Origin: Sulfobacillus acidophilus DSM 10332
GTDB taxonomy: Bacteria > Bacillota > Sulfobacillia > Sulfobacillales > Sulfobacillaceae
NCBI GenBank assembly: GCA_000237975.1
Contig: CP003179.1
Span: 496,001-560,000 of the forward strand
Length of the DNA stretch: 64,000 nucleotides
Direction: 5' to 3'
Of the stretch, positions 45,607-57,014 are shown piece by piece (position 1 is the stretch's first letter; each line of letters starts with the position of its first letter). The notes under the pieces are model-generated. The model was not told the DNA's origin, did not search any database, and was given only the letters and a program-made list of their open reading frames with translations. The position numbers and the translations under genes are program-made.

Positions 45607-45900
45607 GTGCAAGTCATGGTCCCGGCGGAATACCGCCAAAACGTCCGCTGGTTTTTGAATTTGGATGCCGGGTCGTTTGCCCTCTTGGTGGGCGGCGCGG
45701 CGGTGGGGTTTAGTGTCTTGAAAGGGCATGCGCCGCTTGCGGAACGCATTCCGGAGTCGTTGGCGGTGCTCGGGTTGACCATCGCGCTGGCTGTGGTGCG
45801 GTGGCCCATTGACCACGGGGATCGGGCCACCACATGGTTGCGCCGCGGGTGGGAGTACTACTGGCGGGCCAAGCGCGGCAGCGCATGGGGTGCCGAGTAA
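45607..45900 (+). CDS. PrgI-like conjugation membrane protein
   Basis: The 97-residue protein starts at GTG after GAGGAGGTGG. It begins VQVMVPAEYRQNVRWFLNLDAG, has two membrane segments (SFALLVGGAAVGFSVL; SLAVLGLTIALAVVRWPI), and ends DHGDRATTWLRRGWEYYW. This matches PrgI/VirB3-type proteins of Gram-positive type IV secretion. A decayed copy lies at 49963. Confidence 0.6.
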   Translation: MQVMVPAEYRQNVRWFLNLDAGSFALLVGGAAVGFSVLKGHAPLAERIPESLAVLGLTIALAVVRWPIDHGDRATTWLRRGWEYYWRAKRGSAWGAE

Positions 45901-45934
45901 ACGAACCATAAATTCTCTTAAGGAGGAAAATCGG

Positions 45935-46573
45935 TTGAACTCACCACTTACGTTATCGCACTTAGTGGCCGATCGCATGCTCGATCCGGTCACGGCGGAT
46001 CAATTGGTTGACCATCTCCGTAACAAGCGCCGTCTCTTGATCACGGGGCTTCCGGGGACAGGCAAGACGACACTGTTGCGGGCCTTGGCTCTTGAAGCCA
46101 TTTCGTCCGAGCAATCGCTGGTGCTTTTGCAACCATTCGACGAGGTGCAGGCTCACCCGGCGTTTCCGCATGGCGTCACGATAACAGGCCCCGTTATCCC
46201 TTTGCTTTTACAGACCGTCGCGTTGTTGCGCCCGGATTATGTGCTGATCAACGACATGTCGTGGGATGCGGATCAGTTGCAGGCCCTGACGGCAGAGCGG
46301 TCGGCGGGCGTGGTGAGCACGCTCGTGATGCGATCGCCAGAGGACGTCCTGTCCTATGTGGGGTGGACTACCCAACGTCTTTCGGGAGATCTCCGTCTTT
46401 CCTCCGCAGAATTGCGCGCCATCGTATCCCGTGCGTGGGATCTCATCGTGCATTGCGCGTGGGTCACGGATCAGGACGGGCAGCGCCGGCGGCAGGTGAC
46501 CCTGGTCGGCACGATGCAGCCTGACGGCTCGATCGTGCCCTGGGAGTCGTTCGCGACGGCGCCCGTGGGATAA
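45935..46573 (+). CDS. VirB11/CpaF-like secretion ATPase (short)
   Basis: The 212-residue protein starts at TTG after AAGGAGG. Walker A is LITGLPGTGKTTLLRALA. DYVLINDMSWDADQLQALTAE is in the Walker B position, and a GVVSTLVMRSPEDVLSYVG segment resembles the His-box region. It lacks the usual N-terminal domain of VirB11 proteins. It would power pilus or DNA secretion with the flanking PrgI and prepilin peptidase. Confidence 0.7.
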   Translation: MNSPLTLSHLVADRMLDPVTADQLVDHLRNKRRLLITGLPGTGKTTLLRALALEAISSEQSLVLLQPFDEVQAHPAFPHGVTITGPVIPLLLQTVALLRPDYVLINDMSWDADQLQALTAERSAGVVSTLVMRSPEDVLSYVGWTTQRLSGDLRLSSAELRAIVSRAWDLIVHCAWVTDQDGQRRRQVTLVGTMQPDGSIVPWESFATAPVG

Positions 46574-46577
46574 GAAT

Positions 46578-47991
46578 GAGAATGCCCCATTTTTCGTGGA
46601 AATTGAAACTAGCGATCCCGATGGCTCTCTGGTTTACTAGAGAGGTCTAACCCATCATGAAGGAGGAATCGCTAGTGGCTTCCAGTATAACGAAAAAGTC
46701 CCGCTCGGAACAGACGCTGACCGTGCCGTGGGTAGACATTCTCCAGGATGCGGAAGACGGCTTATTGGCGCTGTCGATCCGGGTCGGATTGCAGGTCTTG
46801 CAACAGATGATGGCGGCCGAGGTGGAGCAGTTAGCGGGGCCTAAAGGACGTCATGATCCGCAACGCCAAGCGGTCCGACACGGGACCGAAGTCGGGAGCG
46901 TCTTTTTGGGGGATCGCAAAATCTCCGTTTCGCACCCACGGGTGCGGGCAGCCGATGGCTCGGAGGAAATTCCGTTAGACACCTACCATCAGTTTCAGGA
47001 CCCGACGCTGGCGACCCAAGCCGTACTGGAACGGATGCTGTATGGCTTAGCGAGCCGCCAGCAGCGCCATGCCGATGCCGCCTTTGAATCCGCGATGGAG
47101 CAGCCGGGCCCCAGCAAAAGCACGGTGAGCCGGCGCTTTATCCAAGCCACCCAACAGGCCCTCGACCGCTTCCTCCAACGCCGGTTGGATGACCGGACGT
47201 GGGTTGTGGTGATGATCGATGGTTTGCGCGTGGCCGACCACATGGTGGTCGGGGCCTTAGGGATTGATGCGGAAGGCCACAAACGCGTACTGGGATTGGT
47301 GGAAGGGGCCACCGAAAATCATACCGTGGTCACGGCCTTATTACAGGATCTGATCACCCGCGGCCTGACGGCCGCGCACGGATTACTCGTGGTCATCGAT
47401 GGCGCCAAGGCCTTAGCCAAAGCGGTGCGCGAGGTCTGGGGGGATCGCGTCCTCATCCAACGCTGCCAAATTCACAAGCAACGGAATGTGCTGGACCACC
47501 TGCCGAAATCGGCCGAAAATCGTGTCCGCCAGCGCTTACGGAAAGCGTATCAAGAACCGGATGCGGACAAGGCCGCCCAGGCATTAGAAGCGCTCGCGAA
47601 AGAGCTTGAACGGGACCATCCCGGCGCCGCCGGGAGCCTCCGAGAAGGGTTGGAAGAGACCCTCACCGTGCAGCGTTTGGGTCTTCCGGGCCTCTTGCGC
47701 CAAACGTTGGCCAACACCAATGCCATGGAATCTCTTAACAGTCAATTTCGGACCCATGCGCAGAACGTCAAACATTGGACCAATGGGCAACAAGTCTTAC
47801 GCTGGTTGGCGTCGGCGAGCTTTTTCATCGAAGACACGTTGACGCGGATCCCGGGCTATCGCGAGATTCCCGTGTTGCAAACGGCCTTAAAATCAGCAGT
47901 GGCGCATAAACCCGAACAAAAAACCGAGCAAATCGGTTAAATCATGAGAAAGGATACGCTAGCGAAATTCCACGAAACCTGGGACAACCTC
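46578..47991 (+). mobile_element. IS256-family insertion, copy 1 (1414 bp)
   Basis: It is flanked by the 8-bp target duplication ATAAGAAT (46570-46577 and 47992-47999). Ends begin GAGAATGCCCC and, inverted, GAGGTTGTCCC, with shared inner repeat TTTCGTGGAA. It separates a VirB11-like gene from a prepilin-peptidase gene. Restoring the target gives a stop and a start in the sequence TAAGAATG. Confidence 0.92.
46657..47940 (+). CDS. IS256-family transposase, copy 1
   Basis: The 427-residue mutator-type transposase has GPKGRHDPQRQAVRHGTEVG near the N-terminus. The catalytic region shows VVMIDGLRVADHMVVGALGID (Asp) and LLVVIDGAKALAKAVREVWG (Asp). NTNAMESLNSQFRTH carries the Glu, with the CxxH-like RCQIHKQRNVLDHL between. 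The frame is intact. The protein is identical to copy 2 at 59663. Confidence 0.95.
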   Translation: MKEESLVASSITKKSRSEQTLTVPWVDILQDAEDGLLALSIRVGLQVLQQMMAAEVEQLAGPKGRHDPQRQAVRHGTEVGSVFLGDRKISVSHPRVRAADGSEEIPLDTYHQFQDPTLATQAVLERMLYGLASRQQRHADAAFESAMEQPGPSKSTVSRRFIQATQQALDRFLQRRLDDRTWVVVMIDGLRVADHMVVGALGIDAEGHKRVLGLVEGATENHTVVTALLQDLITRGLTAAHGLLVVIDGAKALAKAVREVWGDRVLIQRCQIHKQRNVLDHLPKSAENRVRQRLRKAYQEPDADKAAQALEALAKELERDHPGAAGSLREGLEETLTVQRLGLPGLLRQTLANTNAMESLNSQFRTHAQNVKHWTNGQQVLRWLASASFFIEDTLTRIPGYREIPVLQTALKSAVAHKPEQKTEQIG

Positions 47992-47997
47992 ATAAGA

Positions 47998-48435
47998 ATG
48001 CTTACACGACTGACGTTATTGGTCCTCGTGGCGCTCTGGAGTTTGCCCATTGCCGTGATTGATGCCCGTACCCGCCAGATTCCGAATGGGGCAATTGGAC
48101 TCGGTGGTATCGTCGCGTTGGCCTGGGCCATCGGCACCCAGACGCTCACGGCCCATCTCCTGGGGGCTGCGGCATTAGCGGCCATCGGCCTTGTCGGATA
48201 TCTAACCGGTGGGTTCGGTGCTGGTGACGTCAAGTATTTGATGGTGTTAGGGCTATGGTTCGGATTCTGGCGTGGAGGACTTGCCTTGGGATGCGCCGCC
48301 GCTGGCGGCGCACTCTGGGGGCTTACCACATGGCTGGTTACCGGAGACCGGCCGACGACGATGGCTTTTGGTCCGTGGTTGGCCGTGGGGACGATTCTGG
48401 CGGCGATGGTTTCGACGGCAGATTTAGGCGTTTAA
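47998..48435 (+). CDS. A24-type prepilin peptidase
   Basis: The 145-residue multi-spanning membrane protease starts MLTRLTLLVLVALWSLP. The aspartates are in AVIDARTRQIPN and GGFGAGDVKYLM (GxGD). It lacks the N-terminal methylase domain, so it belongs to the short TadV/CpaA-like type. The ATG at 47998 lies in the IS256 target duplication. Before insertion it followed the VirB11-like stop by 1 nt. Confidence 0.88.
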   Translation: MLTRLTLLVLVALWSLPIAVIDARTRQIPNGAIGLGGIVALAWAIGTQTLTAHLLGAAALAAIGLVGYLTGGFGAGDVKYLMVLGLWFGFWRGGLALGCAAAGGALWGLTTWLVTGDRPTTMAFGPWLAVGTILAAMVSTADLGV

Positions 48436-48640: not shown

Positions 48641-49183
48641 CTATTGTCCGGCGGGCACCGACACATGCCATTTAAGCCCACTGACGTCCTCTACCACGAC
48701 CGTGACGTGCGAAAGCTTCTGAAGCCTCGGGGCATCTTGAGCAGGAATCGGCAAGGTTACTGTGGCTTCGGCGGACAACGGTACCACCAATCCCCAGGGA
48801 CCCGTGGTGATTCGCTGAAAATAATACGTATTATGAATCGCCCGGGATGGCAACCCGGCGAGCTGTTTGGGCCCCCACACCGCCACGGGGTGATGGGTGG
48901 TCGGATTAACCAGGGCCACTTTCTCCACGAACGATCCATAGGTATCCGGACCATTTGGCCGATAAATCACAAGGTCGAGGGCGTTCGGCGTCAACCGGGT
49001 GCCGGTTAAGGTCAAGGACGGCGTCTTGTTATAGTTCACTAAGGTTCCCCATAGCCCGTGGTGTTCAAACTGATAGGCCCAGAGGGTTAAAAAGATGGCC
49101 ACGACCAACATCCAAAGGCTGGTCTTGCGAACGGCGGCGGCTTGTCGCGGCGTGGTGCTGACGTCAGTCGTAAGTGCTTTCAT
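48641..49183 (-). CDS. doxA: Thiosulfate:quinone oxidoreductase small subunit DoxA
   Basis: The 180-residue protein has one N-terminal membrane segment (KTSLWMLVVAIFLTLWAYQ). The outer domain is rich in beta strands (LTLTGTRLTPNALDLVIYRPNGPDTYGSFVEKVALV). This is the pattern of the DoxA subunit known from Acidianus. ATG 49183 has AAAGGAGCG upstream and lies 26 nt after doxD, so both form one operon. It oxidises thiosulfate to tetrathionate and passes electrons to quinone. Confidence 0.75.
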   Translation of the reverse strand: MKALTTDVSTTPRQAAAVRKTSLWMLVVAIFLTLWAYQFEHHGLWGTLVNYNKTPSLTLTGTRLTPNALDLVIYRPNGPDTYGSFVEKVALVNPTTHHPVAVWGPKQLAGLPSRAIHNTYYFQRITTGPWGLVVPLSAEATVTLPIPAQDAPRLQKLSHVTVVVEDVSGLKWHVSVPAGQ

Positions 49184-49209
49184 GACGGATCGCTCCTTTT
49201 TTGTATCGG

Positions 49210-49785
49210 TTATGTTAAATGCAAGTCCCATCGGCCGATCCGTAGGTGGCCGTCCCAATATTTGTGAATCCAGCGGTCGACCCCCAGTCCGCCGGCGCCC
49301 ACAAACATCAGGATCATCGCCGCGATGCCTTCCACTGAACCGATTTGAAATTCGTCCACGCAGGCCGTGCCAAGCCATCCGTTGCCGAACAGCATGCTAA
49401 AGGAGAGCACCGCCGCCCCGAAGGCGGCCAACCGGGTCAGAGTACCCGTCAGCAAAAACAATCCGACCACAAACTCTACCCAACTAAAGATAATCAAAAA
49501 GTCCCATGCCCAATGCGGATGCAACAACAGCCACCGGATCATCCCCTGAATCGGGGGCAACGCGTGCGGCATCATGGTGCTGAACTTATGGGCAATATTA
49601 TGCTTGGAGTACCAGTCCATTTTGCTCGGCGCATTCAGGTAGCGCCGGGCCCAGGCCGTAAAGAATTGAAATCCGATAATAAAGCGAAGCGGCCATAAGT
49701 ACGATGACGGAACCCAGCCGTCCACATCCTTAGCTCGGGAATCTTCCGTGGTTGCAAACACCTCGGTGGTTTTCGCCGATACCAT
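49210..49785 (-). CDS. doxD: Thiosulfate:quinone oxidoreductase DoxD (DoxX superfamily)
   Basis: The 191-residue membrane protein has about four hydrophobic segments (YLWPLRFIIGFQFFTAWARRYL; AWDFLIIFSWVEFVVGLFLLTGTLTRL; LFGNGWLGTACVDEFQIG; AAMILMFVGAGGLGVDRWI). These match TQO DoxD. GGGAGG precedes the ATG at 49785. It pairs with DoxA downstream and supports a sulfur-oxidising lifestyle. Confidence 0.8.
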   Translation of the reverse strand: MVSAKTTEVFATTEDSRAKDVDGWVPSSYLWPLRFIIGFQFFTAWARRYLNAPSKMDWYSKHNIAHKFSTMMPHALPPIQGMIRWLLLHPHWAWDFLIIFSWVEFVVGLFLLTGTLTRLAAFGAAVLSFSMLFGNGWLGTACVDEFQIGSVEGIAAMILMFVGAGGLGVDRWIHKYWDGHLRIGRWDLHLT

Positions 49786-50430: not shown

Positions 50431-50790
50431 ATGGCTCACTGGGTTCCGCTTTGGTTGCCGCCGGATATCCGCCATGTCGCCGTCGCACGCTTGGCGGCAA
50501 CCGGGTTCTTTGGCGTAGGAGGGCTGGCCAGTGTATGGCGCCGTACACGCGCCGTCGGATGGGGGATAATGGCCAGTGCCGTGGTCGGGCTGTTTGCGGC
50601 CGGGGTCCTTTGGGGCGGCCATAGGTTGTTGAAAGAGATGGTGAATATCATGTCCAATTGCATAATGTCCCGTGGTTATATTGGATCGGCAGAAATTTTC
50701 GCCCTTCGTGTGGGCCATCCCCAGGCAATGGTTCCCATCGCGATCCCTCCGGCAGATACTCCCAAGATTACCAGCCCGGTTAGGTGGTAG
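50431..50790 (+). CDS. Small membrane protein, 3' end overlaps the opposite MFS gene
   Basis: ATG 50431 follows GAGGAGGG. The product begins MAHWVPLWLPPDIRHVAVARLAATGFFGVGG and has a second hydrophobic segment (GWGIMASAVVGLFAAGVLWGG). The part after about residue 80 is antisense to the MFS gene, so the true gene may be truncated near 50675. It follows the PrgI pseudogene, hence it may be conjugation-related. Confidence 0.4.
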   Translation: MAHWVPLWLPPDIRHVAVARLAATGFFGVGGLASVWRRTRAVGWGIMASAVVGLFAAGVLWGGHRLLKEMVNIMSNCIMSRGYIGSAEIFALRVGHPQAMVPIAIPPADTPKITSPVRW

Positions 50791-51941
50791 TGTGCTAAGG
50801 TCACCCCGCCAAAGAGCGTAATGATTGCGGCGACGATGTCTGATCCGAAATCTGCCATACCCATGATCGTTCCCCGTTCCCTGGGGGGGACAGCCTCGGC
50901 CAGTTCCCCGAGGCCCGCCATCCACGCAATGCACCAGCCCACGCCGACAACAAATAAACTTATGCTGATGGTGAGGGGTGTCAGCGATACGATAGCCATT
51001 GTCGCCGTCGCGGCAATCATGGCGACGGCACCCATTAAGGCCATACGGGGACGGGGCGTACGGGTCGCCCATCCACCGGCCCATCGCATAGGACCAAACA
51101 TGCCGGTAAAGTGGACGGCCATGACGATCATAATGGTGCGTGATCCGGCACCCATCTGTTTCAGCACTTCGCCAGCCAGGGCCATATCCATCACCATGAC
51201 GCCGTAAATCACACTAATCGCCAACAATATCGCGCCGATCCGACGGTGGCCCGTTCGCGGGAGGACGGACCGGTGCGGAACATCCTGATCCGTTTCCCAT
51301 GCGTGCGCCATCTGAATCGGATCCGGGCGTAAAAGGCCCCAGGTGCCGATCATTCCCATGATCCAGAGTATTGCCACAAGAAACCATGGGTCGGCGAGCA
51401 TGCGCATGGTGGCCTGAGGGGACCTGCCCGTGGCGACGGCCATTCCCAAATAAGCTCCCAGCAAGGCCCCGGTTTGAACCACGCCGATCCCCCGCGTACG
51501 TGCTTGGGGCGGGTATAAATCAGCGGCGGCGGCTTTGAGTAGCCGCAATATCCCGATGCCCATTCCCGTCAAGATCCAGGCGGCCCAGAGCCATAGAACC
51601 GTCTGGGTCCCCATACTCAAACCGGCCGCCAGTGCTCCGAGTCCGCCGATGAAAAACCCCCCGCTCAAGAGAGGGCGGCGCCCAACGCGGTCCGAGAGCC
51701 ATCCGGCCGGTACGGATGTCATCCCCGCCAATCCGAAAACGATAGCCGGACCGAGACCGGCCACAGCCGGAGATCCGACAACGCGTGCCGTCACGATGGC
51801 GGAGAATCCCGACACCATTTCGATCAATACATATAATACGGCGGCACTGCTGGTGAGGACGATGACATGCTTTCGGGAGACGGATGGGCGGGCCGTTGTT
51901 GGGGCATTCGAGGCTTTCACGGGGTTCCTCTTTTCCTTCAT
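50676..51941 (-). CDS. MFS exporter downstream of an isocyanide-synthase-like gene
   Basis: The protein has about 421 residues with 12 hydrophobic segments. PAGWLSDRVGRRPLLSGGFFIGGLGALAAGL is the MFS motif A region. ATG 51941 lies 14 nt after the upstream stop; another ATG at 51971 overlaps it. Close linkage to the isocyanide-synthase-like pseudogene suggests export of that product, which is inference. Confidence 0.85.
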   Translation of the reverse strand: MKEKRNPVKASNAPTTARPSVSRKHVIVLTSSAAVLYVLIEMVSGFSAIVTARVVGSPAVAGLGPAIVFGLAGMTSVPAGWLSDRVGRRPLLSGGFFIGGLGALAAGLSMGTQTVLWLWAAWILTGMGIGILRLLKAAAADLYPPQARTRGIGVVQTGALLGAYLGMAVATGRSPQATMRMLADPWFLVAILWIMGMIGTWGLLRPDPIQMAHAWETDQDVPHRSVLPRTGHRRIGAILLAISVIYGVMVMDMALAGEVLKQMGAGSRTIMIVMAVHFTGMFGPMRWAGGWATRTPRPRMALMGAVAMIAATATMAIVSLTPLTISISLFVVGVGWCIAWMAGLGELAEAVPPRERGTIMGMADFGSDIVAAIITLFGGVTLAHYHLTGLVILGVSAGGIAMGTIAWGWPTRRAKISADPI

Positions 51942-51954
51942 ATGGTATCGGCAT

Positions 51955-52880
51955 TTAGGTATGTCGTTCATAAAACACGGTGACGCCAAATGGATCAATG
52001 ATCCGCGTCACGTCCCCGGTAATCAGCAACTCCGGTTCAATCGTCACGCGATGCCGTCGCATGCGGGAGACATATTCGATTACGGCGATTCCATGGTAAG
52101 GCAACAACGTGGATCGCAATTTATACTCGGGATAGACGCGTAGTCCCAATACGGGAATATTCTTCATATGAATGGTTGCACGAATACCGTGGGGAAAAAA
52201 TACCTCCTCCCATTGCATGCCTTGAACGCACGGGACTCCGTGAGACTTTGTCGGGCTTGGTCGATCAAGGCCATTTTTACGGGCGGTCCTGCGGCGGACG
52301 ATGCGTCCGATGCAAAACTTCTTTTAATTCTACGTAGGACAAGCGTAGTTTTCGTTTATTAATACTCGCCAGCCATTGTTCATAGGAAGCCGCCGACAGA
52401 CCATCTGCTAAAGGATTATGCGTCAATTGGTGCCCCCAATTATTATAATGTAAAATCAATTCCGGTAGATTGGCGGCAATTAAATCATCGTGTACCCGAA
52501 CGCTCGACATTGGCTTGTAGTGAGCGGATATATTCTTGACTTTCGACTGCGGTCACTCCAAAGGGCAATCCATAAAACGTGCTGTCGGAGACGATATGAA
52601 ATTTCAACCCTGGCGCGTAGATTTTGCGCATCCATTGGGCCATATGTCCCATGTGTCGAAAGGCCACCTCTTCTGCAGTTGTGGCCGTGGTGGGCTGCTG
52701 CCGCTTAACGGGATTACCAATCACGCAGAACACCGGGAGGATGATTTCAATTGGGCGCTGGGCGACGCAAGCTGCGGAAACTTTTTGACGAATGGCTTCT
52801 GCGTCGCGAAATCGCGACCGGCTGTTGGGTGCGGGTGAACCCCCGAGTCCATAGGTGAATCGTACTCGTAAACCCGGACA
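51955..52880 (-). pseudogene. DIT1/PvcA-type isocyanide (isonitrile) synthase, frameshifted
   Basis: Pieces in successive frames align in order with the family. These are EAIRQKVSAACVAQRPIEIILPVFCVIGNPVKRQ and EEVAFRHMGHMAQWMRKIYAPGLKFHIVSDSTFYG (about 52800-52500). SVRVHDDLIAANLPELILHYNNWG follows (52510-52277), then VKMALIDQARQSLTESRAF (near 52270-52220). The C-terminus EEVFFPHGIRATIHMKNIPVLGLRVYPEYKLRSTLLPYHGIAVIEY ends at 51955. At least three frameshifts separate them. Family members convert an amino acid and ribulose 5-phosphate to an isonitrile. Confidence 0.6.
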
Positions 52881-52972: not shown

Positions 52973-53311
52973 ATGTTCTTGGGGATCGATAATCTTGTCC
53001 CGTCGCTGCCGGTCTTGCTCATTTTACGCGCACTCGAAGAGGGCCCCGCCCACGGATACAAAATTGCCCGATGGATCGACGAGCAATCCGATCATCGCCT
53101 GCTGCTGAAAGAGGGCACCTTGTATCCGACTTTGCATCAGTTGGAACAACACGGGTTAATTCAGGGACAATGGGATCGTACCCATACCAAACGTCCCACC
53201 AAAGTCTACGCGTTAACTCCGATGGGCCGTCAGCGACTCGAGGCTGATCGGGAGCGGTGGATGCAGCAAGTGGTGGCGGCGCAACACGTTTTAGGGTATG
53301 GAGGCATCTAA
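52973..53311 (+). CDS. PadR-family transcriptional regulator
   Basis: The 112-residue winged-helix protein contains LLILRALEEGPAHGYKIARWIDEQSDHRLLLKEGTLYPTLHQLEQHGLI. ATG 52973 follows GAGGTG. The AT-rich region just upstream (52940-52965, TATACATAGTATTCTATATA) holds the promoter and an imperfect dyad, likely its own operator. It lies divergent to the isocyanide-synthase pseudogene and 2 nt before the HAAS gene. Confidence 0.92.
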   Translation: MFLGIDNLVPSLPVLLILRALEEGPAHGYKIARWIDEQSDHRLLLKEGTLYPTLHQLEQHGLIQGQWDRTHTKRPTKVYALTPMGRQRLEADRERWMQQVVAAQHVLGYGGI

Positions 53312-53313
53312 CC

Positions 53314-53937
53314 ATGGATCATCACCCGTATCTTCACCGCGTGACACGTGGTCTCTTCGGACGGCGAAAGGCCCAATTGATTCGGGCGGAACTGGAGAGC
53401 CATCTCTTGTATGCCGAAGAGGAGTTAATGGCGCAGGGTTGGTCACCCGAGGATGCAGCCCGCGAGGCCGAACACCGTTTGGGTGATCCGCGGGTTCAAG
53501 CATCCGCCTGGCGGCGATTCTACTATACGTCTTGGTTGAACGGGGCGACGGCCATGGGGTTCATCGTGGGACTGATTGCGGGAACGGAACCCTGGTGGAT
53601 GGGCGGATCCCCTTGGCAAGCGAATATCATGGAAGCCAGTGCGTTGATGGGGATCATTCTTGCCGTCATCGAAGTGGGACGACTAGGGCGCCGCCAGGCG
53701 TGGACTGCGAGTCGGGTATCCGCCCAATCATTCTTGGGGGCGTTTTGGATAACGGCGTTGGGGAGTAGCGGACTTGTCGGCATTTTGCATCCCATACCGC
53801 CGGTTGGCATGGTGGACTGGTATAACTGGGGTTACGTCAAGCACCTGGCCGCGGTGGGGATGCTGGTGACCGGTATGACGAGCGGCGTCTGGTGGGGGCT
53901 TCGAAAACCGTCGTGGCCGCTTCCCGAGAGGCGATGA
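53314..53937 (+). CDS. HAAS/DUF1700-like membrane protein
   Basis: The 207-residue protein begins with a HAAS-type helical domain (HRVTRGLFGRRKAQLIRAELESHLLYAEEELMAQGWSPEDAAREAEHRLGDP), followed by four hydrophobic segments. PadR plus HAAS-domain proteins commonly precede ABC exporters in Gram-positive bacteria, probably as sensors or anchors. Confidence 0.85.
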   Translation: MDHHPYLHRVTRGLFGRRKAQLIRAELESHLLYAEEELMAQGWSPEDAAREAEHRLGDPRVQASAWRRFYYTSWLNGATAMGFIVGLIAGTEPWWMGGSPWQANIMEASALMGIILAVIEVGRLGRRQAWTASRVSAQSFLGAFWITALGSSGLVGILHPIPPVGMVDWYNWGYVKHLAAVGMLVTGMTSGVWWGLRKPSWPLPERR

Positions 53938-53943
53938 TGGACG

Positions 53944-54780
53944 ATGTTTCGGAGCGAATGGCATCGGATCCAATCTCGGTGGAAACAGTGGCTTTTCGCC
54001 GTGACGATTATGGTGGTCTTTATCGGTCAGGGACTGTGGAGCTATGCTCGGGTGCCGTCGGTCGATACGCACCAGAATGCGTATATGGCCTATCTCTCGG
54101 CACTCGGCAGCGGATCCTCGGCATACTGGATTGGGGTTTTGCCGTTAATCGCGGTTCTCATTGCGGCCGACAGTGTGGCGTGGGATCGGCGCACGGGCAG
54201 CTTGCGTTTTTACTTAGCGCGCACGGATCGCCTGCGCTACATTTTGGGCAAATGGCTGGCCGTGATGGCCTTTACGGCCCTAATTGTGGCCTTGGGCCTG
54301 GCGATTTCCGGCAGTGTCGCCGCGATCGCTTTTCCCGATACGTTACCGCCTTGGCACTGGGTCCACGGCGTGGCAACGCTCACAACCGCCGGGGTTCCCG
54401 CGATGTACCGCAATCCCTACCCCGTATTTGCCCACGCCCTGTTCTTCCGGCACCCGCTGCTCTATGCGGTTCTGATCAGTGGATTGGTTCTTTTGTCGGC
54501 GGGTGTCTGGGCCTCGCTCGCTCTCGTGCTGTCGCTGTGGACGACGAATATCTATATGGTGTTGGCAGGCCCTTGGATTGTCTACCTGGGTTCAACGATT
54601 CTTCTGGGGTTGCCCATGGTGGCGGCCACGCCGTGGGCGCCGCTGGTCATGTCGGGACCGTTGGTGAATAGCTTTTCGGGGCCGGTCGTCGCGGCACTGG
54701 CATATTGGGCGTTGGCCTTGATGTTTTTTGGATGGGTTTTGATCGCGTCCTTTCGCCGAAGGAGGGATTTTCTTGATTGA
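53944..54780 (+). CDS. ABC-2-type transporter permease
   Basis: The 278-residue protein has six hydrophobic segments (QWLFAVTIMVVFIGQGLWSYA; SSAYWIGVLPLIAVLIAADSVAWDRRTG). The DSxAxDRRTGSLRFYLARTDR segment is typical of ABC-2 permeases. It overlaps the ATPase start by 8 nt. Confidence 0.88.
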   Translation: MFRSEWHRIQSRWKQWLFAVTIMVVFIGQGLWSYARVPSVDTHQNAYMAYLSALGSGSSAYWIGVLPLIAVLIAADSVAWDRRTGSLRFYLARTDRLRYILGKWLAVMAFTALIVALGLAISGSVAAIAFPDTLPPWHWVHGVATLTTAGVPAMYRNPYPVFAHALFFRHPLLYAVLISGLVLLSAGVWASLALVLSLWTTNIYMVLAGPWIVYLGSTILLGLPMVAATPWAPLVMSGPLVNSFSGPVVAALAYWALALMFFGWVLIASFRRRRDFLD

Positions 54781-55474
54781 TCAGAAGGAACCGACGCCGC
54801 CCGGGGTACCCGCCATCGTTGCGCAAGGTGTCACCAAAGCTTTAGGGCATGAGGTTGTGCTGGCGAATCTGGATTTAACGGTTCACTTCGGAGAAATTAT
54901 CGGGATTGTCGGCCCTAACGGATCGGGGAAAACCCTGTTGTTGCGTCTCTTGTGCGGATTTGCGTATCCCGATGCCGGCACGATTCAGGTGGACGGGCGC
55001 GATCTGTCCCGGCCGGGATGGGCGGGCCATCTCGCCACGAACGTGGGGGTCCTTATTGAAACGCCCGGATTCTTACCGTATTTGTCCGGTTTCGACAACT
55101 TACGCCTTTTGGCGCTGATTCAAAATCGCATTGGCCCTTCACAAATTCGCGAAGCCTTGGAACGCGTCGGGCTGGATCCTCATAATCGTCGCCCGGTTCG
55201 CACATATTCCTTGGGTATGCGACAACGACTTGGTATCGCCCAGGCGATTATGGAGCAGCCCCGAATCCTTTTGCTCGATGAACCCACTAACGGACTGGAT
55301 CCCGAATTTACCGACGCCTTTTTGGCCCTGATGCGACGCTTGCGCGATGGAGGTACCGCGATTGTCTGGACCTCGCACGAGCTCGACGAGGTGCGTTCGG
55401 TGGCCGATCGGGTGCTGACTGTGCGCCAGCAGCGACTCGTGGCCGTGTCATCCGGAGGCCACATACTCTCATGA
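54773..55474 (+). CDS. ABC transporter ATPase
   Basis: The 233-residue protein has Walker A GPNGSGKTLLLRLL and signature YSLGMRQRLGIAQAIME. Walker B is RILLLDEPTNGLDPEF and the H-loop is VWTSHELDEV. It starts at TTG 54773. It serves the flanking permeases in an exporter of unknown substrate. Confidence 0.95.
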   Translation: MIDQKEPTPPGVPAIVAQGVTKALGHEVVLANLDLTVHFGEIIGIVGPNGSGKTLLLRLLCGFAYPDAGTIQVDGRDLSRPGWAGHLATNVGVLIETPGFLPYLSGFDNLRLLALIQNRIGPSQIREALERVGLDPHNRRPVRTYSLGMRQRLGIAQAIMEQPRILLLDEPTNGLDPEFTDAFLALMRRLRDGGTAIVWTSHELDEVRSVADRVLTVRQQRLVAVSSGGHILS

Positions 55475-56283
55475 AGGCGGATGTTGTCGCTGCGTTGACC
55501 CGGCGGCGTTGGTGGGTTGTTCCCGCTCTCGCGGCGGCGGCTACCCTGCTAGCCTTATCTGAACTCGAGAGCTTCCCCGCTGCGGCAGTCCTGGTGAATC
55601 AATGGGATGTCTTGTTGGGCGTGTTTGATGCGCCCTTCATCGCGGTCGTCGTTTTGCCGGTTTCCTATTTTTCTTTGACCGTTGACATGCTTTCGCCCAC
55701 GTTTACCGAACGGGGCGGGTATTTCGCCTTGGGACGCCACGCGACCCGGTGGCAGTGGTGGGTCCGCAAGATGTTGGCGCTGGGTATTTTGACCATTATA
55801 TTTGTCGGCGTTCTCTGGGCGACGGCCATCGTGGTCAGCGGCATGACCGTGCCCTGGGGCTTCACCTGGAGCCGCTTCGCCGCGGCGACCGGCATCCACT
55901 ATCCGGGCGGGCTCTCACCCGGGCCATTGCGTCAGCCGCCCTGGCTCATCATGGCCGACATGACCCTGCTCTTGAGTGTGGGACTATATGCCTGGGGATT
56001 GGTGGTGTTGGTGGTAGGATGGGTCACCCGCCATGCGATTTGGGGGTGGGTGATGGGGGCGGTCTTGGCCATGGTGTCCTATGGCCTGTGGATGGTGCAT
56101 GGCGGAACCCCCGGCTGGGCGTGGGCCCCGATGAATCAGCTGTTATTGAGTACACACCGAGGGTTTCGTGTGTCGGATCCGCCGGGAACCCCAACCGTTT
56201 GGGGTTCCCTCATCACCGAGATGGGTGTCGGGATGGTGGCCGTGGTCGTAGGTTTTGCGGTGTTCCGGCGCCGCGTGTTGTGA
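55471..56283 (+). CDS. ABC exporter permease subunit
   Basis: The 270-residue protein has six hydrophobic segments, including PALAAAATLLALSELES and MLALGILTIIFVGVLWATAIVV. ATG 55471 overlaps the ATPase stop. There is no sequence-level family recognition beyond the operon context. Confidence 0.75.
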   Translation: MKADVVAALTRRRWWVVPALAAAATLLALSELESFPAAAVLVNQWDVLLGVFDAPFIAVVVLPVSYFSLTVDMLSPTFTERGGYFALGRHATRWQWWVRKMLALGILTIIFVGVLWATAIVVSGMTVPWGFTWSRFAAATGIHYPGGLSPGPLRQPPWLIMADMTLLLSVGLYAWGLVVLVVGWVTRHAIWGWVMGAVLAMVSYGLWMVHGGTPGWAWAPMNQLLLSTHRGFRVSDPPGTPTVWGSLITEMGVGMVAVVVGFAVFRRRVL

Positions 56284-57014
56284 TGACCAGAAGAGGAATC
56301 ATCCGGCTGGCATCCCGAGAACTTGGGCGTCGATGGCCGGGCGCGCTCGGATTATTTGGGGTCGGGATGCTGCGGGGGATGCTGGAAGGCACACCGGCGG
56401 GATCGCCGACGCTGCCGCGGGTTCTAGCGCGGGCTTGGCAGGGCGTGCCCCCGCATGCCTCCATCCTCTTCATCTTTTTGTGGATGGTCGTCCCCCTGTG
56501 CTGGGGGCTTATCGTCGGCGAGCCGTGGGTCCTTGACCGACCGGGATGGCATCGCATGGTGGCGATCCGAGTCAGAACCCGCTGGGCCTGGTGGAGCGGC
56601 ACACTCGTGGCGTTGTTCGCATCAGCCATCCCGGCAACAGGTCTCCTCCTTGGAGGGAGTCTTATGGCCGCGATCGGCATCCATCATGTGCGCTGGTCGA
56701 CGACACTCTGGCCGACGCTGGGTAATCTGGCGGTCATGCTGCTGGAAATATTGTGGGCCTATCTCGCGCTCTTGATCGCCTTCAGCATGATCAGCCGGCG
56801 ACCGGGTGGGGCCCTCATGGCCACTCTGGGGCTGGGCTATCTCGCAAATGCATGGTTGCCGAGACAGCCTTGCCGTTCCTGGGTGCCGCCGCTGGCTGGC
56901 CAATATCCGATGCCGACTTTACCTCATGATGTCCGAGCGGCGGGGGGTGTCGTCATCGCGGTGTTATTCATCACCGCGCTATATTGGGGGCATTGGCGAA
57001 AATTGTCCTTATAG
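56283..57014 (+). CDS. ABC exporter permease-like membrane protein
   Basis: The 243-residue protein has about six hydrophobic segments (ASILFIFLWMVVPLCWGLIVG; WWSGTLVALFASAIPATGLLLGGSL; LAVMLLEILWAYLALLIAFSMIS). ATG 56283 overlaps the previous stop (TGATG). It is the last gene of the PadR-led operon. Confidence 0.72.
   Translation: MTRRGIIRLASRELGRRWPGALGLFGVGMLRGMLEGTPAGSPTLPRVLARAWQGVPPHASILFIFLWMVVPLCWGLIVGEPWVLDRPGWHRMVAIRVRTRWAWWSGTLVALFASAIPATGLLLGGSLMAAIGIHHVRWSTTLWPTLGNLAVMLLEILWAYLALLIAFSMISRRPGGALMATLGLGYLANAWLPRQPCRSWVPPLAGQYPMPTLPHDVRAAGGVVIAVLFITALYWGHWRKLSL

Follow-up and report, generated by a model that had tools for sequence, protein, structure and literature searches.

Organization of the locus

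A remnant of a DIT1/PvcA-family gene lies at 52826-51955 on the minus strand of the window, by which we mean the whole stretch of 64,000 nucleotides of Sulfobacillus acidophilus DSM 10332 analysed here, and it is made up of four coding pieces separated by three frame changes (Table 1). Its stop codon is followed, after a gap of 34 bp, by an intact gene for a transporter of the MFS type. A six-frame search of the whole genome with the PF05141 (DIT1_PvcA) profile matched window positions 52485-52775 (genome positions 548485-548775) with an E-value of 3.1e-10 and 40.8 bits, above the curated Pfam cut-off of 26.4 bits, and found no second match in the 3,557,831 bp of the two contigs. When taken on its own, the ORF at 52733-52485 reached an E-value of 2.2e-8 against the same profile.

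Table 1. Features at the remnant and beside it, in window coordinates.
Feature	Start	End	Strand	Remarks
Relic piece 1	52487	52826	-	Begins at about residue 91-113 of the intact protein (NSRSRF...); PF05141 match
Relic piece 2	52277	52510	-	Other frame; tblastn with Jiella, Rhodobacterales and Nocardia (52504-52304); frameshift-aware alignment
Relic piece 3	52215	52280	-	First frame again; contains ALIDQARQSLTESRAFKA; frameshift-aware alignment with four intact homologues
Relic piece 4	51955	52218	-	Third frame; R-x-T-I-H, YPEYK and LLPYHG motifs, and stop codon
MFS transporter gene, intact	50676	51920	-	PF07690, E 4.4e-26
Expected place of the lost 5' part	52827	52972		Nothing resembling the N-terminal extension of intact relatives (tblastn, 15 relatives)
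PadR-family regulator gene	52973	53311	+	PF03551, E 5e-22; divergent, adjoins the truncation

Searches by tblastn with intact relatives matched three separate frames in the expected order (52826-52494, 52504-52304 and 52230-51970), with combined E-values down to 1e-65 and identities of up to 55% in both the first and the last of these stretches. Since the best score of these queries against the rest of the window, or against the window reversed, was 27 bits, versus 127 bits at the relic, chance similarity is excluded. Piece 1 retains the K, D and Y residues that are conserved in the PF05141 family, and in piece 2 the conserved S-x5-N motif has been hit by the loss of 4 residues, as seen in the frameshift-aware alignment. 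Piece 4, which alone gives no Pfam match, is up to 55% identical to the Jiella protein by tblastn and shares 47% identity with a stretch of a plasmid gene from Moraxella osloensis, and it carries the YPEYK...LLPYHG signature at 52134-52091. The alignment with four intact homologues locates the frame changes near 52514, 52284-52332 and 52216, not far from the sites at 52500, 52277 and 52218 named in an earlier note on this DNA. That note had recognised DIT1/PvcA pieces in the right order in three frames, a description borne out by the profile match and the ordered matches of relatives, and the profile search that it had proposed as a test of DIT1_PvcA kinship turned out positive (E 3.1e-10).

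The same note had described the downstream exporter gene as intact, which agrees with the PF07690 match of its product (92.1 bits, profile positions 6-345 of 347, near full length) in an open frame. Its start is likely the GTG at 51920 behind AGGAAAAGAGG, the ORF being open from 51998; promoter-like sites were found only at chance level. On the other side of the relic, a divergent gene set at 52973-57014 (plus strand) comprises the PadR regulator, a HAAS-domain protein and ABC-2 type transporter genes; the PadR gene heads this ABC-transporter set and is probably unrelated to the relic.

Intact relatives and their distribution

A DNA pattern for the C-terminal YPEY-x5-LxPYHG motif, derived from the window and the Moraxella gene, occurred at 21 loci in 84,980 species genomes, nearly all of which encode family members. 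Scanning genome contigs with piece 1 yielded no close relatives, and profile and pattern scans of viral contigs gave no family match, a phage search being likewise blank. Intact relatives are present in Jiella, Roseibium, Rhodobacterales, Thauera, Oceanospirillum, Sideroxydans and Nocardia as proteins of ~400 aa with an N-terminal extension of ~100 aa, and all eight of those scanned exceed the PF05141 cut-off. The extension is absent from the window copy, along with the rest of its 5' end. Closest to the relic in sequence are the synthases of Jiella, Roseibium and Rhodobacterales, with pieces up to 55% identical. The search for an intact homologue, which had also been suggested as a test, succeeded in several bacteria.

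Two branches are distinguished within the subfamily. The K-branch comprises Jiella, Roseibium, Labrenzia, a Rhodobacterales strain, Thauera, Sideroxydans, Oceanospirillum, Nocardia, Commensalibacter, Moraxella, Psychrobacter (placed there by motif and similarity, outside the tree) and the window, and the Y-branch a Streptomyces strain together with assembled genomes labelled Euryarchaeota, Bacteroidetes, Flavobacteriaceae and Verrucomicrobia. Both branches together (a 24-row group) split from the other included PF05141 proteins at 100/99 support, and the window relic falls in the K-branch at 82/76 on a long branch, as expected for a relic.

Family members are rare. Counting the query genome in each case, near full-length members number 3 among 249 genomes in the Nocardia order, 2 among 398 in the Thauera phylum and 1 among 346 in the Nocardia phylum, and PF05141 had no match in 153 other genomes of the class to which the window belongs. 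Such a scattered occurrence suggests horizontal transfer, by which S. acidophilus would have acquired the genes.

Neighbouring genes of the synthase

The linkage between synthase and MFS gene put forward in the earlier note recurs in eight other organisms, an MFS gene being directly downstream of the synthase in Thauera, Sideroxydans, Oceanospirillum, Nocardia, Commensalibacter, Psychrobacter, M. catarrhalis and M. osloensis. Thauera butanivorans, Oceanospirillum sediminis and Commensalibacter, with synthases 43-53% identical to relic pieces 1 and 4, resemble Sulfobacillus in having the synthase followed directly by the MFS gene, but their loci are intact and continue with a HAD phosphatase gene that Sulfobacillus lacks; the Thauera locus also has a divergent AraC/DJ-1-type regulator with no counterpart in Sulfobacillus. 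HAD genes are part of five loci in all, since in Labrenzia and the Rhodobacterales strain such a gene directly follows the synthase, and where scanned the HAD protein is phosphoglycolate-phosphatase-like, scoring below the equivalog cut-off. Unlike Sulfobacillus, the Jiella, Roseibium and Rhodobacterales loci have no adjacent MFS gene, and among loci of this type HAD is adjacent only in Rhodobacterales and Labrenzia; in Jiella, Roseibium and two more loci from actinobacteria, the synthase has neither an MFS nor a HAD gene as its neighbour. No match to PF02668, to which the PvcB/IsnB dioxygenases belong, was found in the S. acidophilus, Thauera, Commensalibacter and Jiella genomes, and in five others checked none was adjacent to the synthase.

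Sequence comparison makes a common origin of the window MFS and the MFS proteins of the intact modules likely. In a single-sequence search, the Sideroxydans partner MFS matches only the window MFS protein in the S. acidophilus genome (E 7e-7), while a profile built from eight partner MFS proteins gives it 41 bits along its entire length, against 20 bits or less for the other MFS proteins of this genome that were compared. Both results, the same gene order and spacing as in intact modules, and the absence of a close homologue of the window MFS from 60 related genomes argue against the alternative that an unrelated Sulfobacillus gene came to lie beside the relic by chance. This alternative appears unlikely, even though it would be in line with the low identity to module MFS proteins (about 23%), with the about equally good matches, over part of its length, of generic MFS proteins from related genomes, with a G+C content of about 60% as against 46-50% in the relic, and with a search of the S. 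acidophilus genome using the module-MFS profile, in whose listing the window MFS was absent. The protein was probably lost at the first stage of that search, because direct scoring ranked it top among those compared.

Several further loci show other arrangements or other broken copies. In the Y-branch, SDR and zinc-alcohol-dehydrogenase genes neighbour the synthase (loci L041, 3852-7722; L045, 4827-7871; L043, 4341-6559), and the Bacteroidetes locus has a gene of PF04029 (2-phosphosulfolactate phosphatase family), a different accessory set that again includes a phosphatase-type protein. In a 2.3-Mb genome of the Nocardia order, an MFS gene also directly follows a third PF05141 gene, one of more distant kinship (L046, 4074-6478). 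The copy on the small Moraxella osloensis plasmid pNP7-7 shares with Sulfobacillus the synthase and MFS genes and a broken synthase, but differs in that an IS5-family insertion splits the latter (L003, 5728-7764). The synthase is likewise broken in M. catarrhalis, as two overlapping frames in a draft genome (L020, 4566-5716), and in Psychrobacter phenylpyruvicus, where its halves lie on two contigs, one beside an apparent transposase fragment (L010, 1-891); the MFS gene is open in all three.

Fold, motifs and likely product of the intact enzyme

The fold was predicted for an intact relative, the Thauera synthase. The resulting model (mean pLDDT of 84) has a predicted PvcA fold, with Z-scores of 26.2 over 286 residues against PvcA (PDB 3e59) and 23.9 against PIsnA with L-Tyr or isonitrile product (PDB 9dh4, 9dhm), the next fold being that of tyrosyl-tRNA synthetases at Z 9.9. 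The subfamily is like PvcA/IsnA-type synthases in its PF05141 match, in its predicted fold (Z 24-26) and in the R-x-[ST]-I-H and P-[WY]-H-G motifs that it shares with the solved isonitrile synthases; it is unlike them in its identity of about 20%, its ~100-residue N-terminal extension, its YPEY motif and its lack of a PvcB/IsnB-type dioxygenase partner, the window copy being broken besides. Against the L-tyrosine isonitrile synthase model NF045653, the relic piece scores 21 bits and the intact relatives 30-42, well short of the equivalog threshold of 600, and with so low a score the substrate or chemistry may differ. The absence of the dioxygenase points to a simpler isonitrile, or to something else, as the product. 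PvcA/IsnA enzymes join the amino nitrogen of L-Trp or L-Tyr to a carbon of ribulose-5-phosphate (PMC7949033).

From the family, predicted fold, conserved neighbours and decay documented here, we consider that the locus is the decayed remnant of a module of an N-extended PvcA-type synthase and an MFS transporter, the intact form of which would make and export an isonitrile or a similar product, and give this reading a probability of roughly 70%. Most likely, the intact synthase would use a sugar phosphate, for instance ribulose-5-phosphate, to convert an amino acid's amino group to an isonitrile or a near relative of one; where a HAD phosphatase is present, its substrate would be an intermediate or by-product that carries phosphate, and export of the product would fall to the MFS protein. 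The synthase gene of S. acidophilus is missing its 5' end and has accumulated frameshifts and small deletions, and the transporter gene, still open, may not have decayed yet or may have been retained for another substrate. Another system in which a PF05141 enzyme works with an MFS exporter is the yeast DIT1-DIT2-DTR1 dityrosine pathway, which differs in being eukaryotic and in having a P450 partner.

A product other than an isonitrile, such as a sugar-amine adduct bearing a phosphate, which the HAD protein would remove before export by the MFS protein, with the relic as a dead copy, would accommodate the missing PvcB/IsnB-type dioxygenase partner, the phosphatase-type partners from unrelated families, namely HAD in one branch and PF04029 in the Bacteroidetes locus, the deep split from other PF05141 proteins and the N-terminal extension. 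Nonetheless, the subfamily retains the fold and the C-terminal motifs of the solved isonitrile synthases, and a non-isonitrile product seems unlikely.

Isonitriles are ligands of copper and iron, and among them are compounds with antibiotic or host-directed activity; to our knowledge, only a few gene arrangements for their synthesis are known in bacteria. A search mostly of the open literature gave fungal and PvcAB/IsnAB-type loci, and nothing on this subfamily. The module, with a synthase related to the isonitrile synthases, is a seemingly undescribed variant of their loci, divergent, rare and easily lost. The odds appear evenly balanced on a broader proposal, in which the intact module (N-extended PvcA-fold synthase, MFS exporter and phosphoglycolate-phosphatase-like HAD, without dioxygenase) represents an undescribed small-molecule pathway that occurs scattered among bacteria, in which the phosphatase would work on the sugar-phosphate side, and which has been repeatedly acquired and repeatedly lost (Sulfobacillus, Moraxella, Psychrobacter). 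As an event, the relic is ordinary; its value is as a lead to this rare and different arrangement, of which culturable environmental bacteria hold intact forms that are directly testable, and in which the recurrent phosphatase offers an entry point to the part of the reaction that involves the sugar phosphate.

Decay of the synthase gene

The alignment of the relic to intact proteins starts only at residue 91-113, with the first ~90-110 codons absent. The possibility that the N-terminal part sits upstream in another frame was not borne out, tblastn with 15 relatives giving no match upstream of 52826. No ATG, GTG or TTG occurs between the upstream stop (52910) and 52733, a position already within the domain, so that the relic has no intact ORF with a start codon, the mark of a functional PF05141 member. 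Short stretches have been lost in addition to the frame changes, as revealed by the frameshift-aware alignment, and neither a repeat nor a transposon was found at the truncation point. The DSM 10332 genome was finished with 454 and Illumina reads, the latter used for polishing, with a stated error rate below 1 in 100,000 (PMC3558970). Thus, the missing 5' end, the lack of a start codon, the short losses and this error rate establish the relic as a pseudogene and not a sequence error.

That the gene is intact in the organism, with frame changes introduced by sequencing or assembly, is scarcely credible: although two pieces remain about 50-55% identical to relatives and retain the family motifs, some 90-110 first codons and any usable start codon are gone, small stretches are missing besides, and three errors within 280 bp would have a probability of about 4e-9 at the stated rate. 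The preserved identity and motifs instead indicate that decay was recent or slow. Hence, where the earlier note had left real decay and sequence error side by side, decay stands and error falls away; its suggestion of isonitrile synthesis in an acidophile is unsupported, the gene being dead and the genome holding no second copy. The relic shows only that S. acidophilus once had a synthase gene and lost it, which is not unusual in a genome in which 155 pseudogenes have been counted (PMC3558970).

Genomic surroundings

Downstream of the MFS gene, at 48641-49785 on the minus strand, lie genes for DoxA and DoxD, the small subunits of thiosulfate:quinone oxidoreductase, which overlap by a stretch of reading frame and fit a sulfur-oxidising host. 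Farther along, an intact Mutator-family (PF00872) transposase gene (46657-47940, plus strand) is flanked by an ORF for a STAND-like NTPase (45809-46573) and a gene for a type IV leader peptidase (47944-48435).
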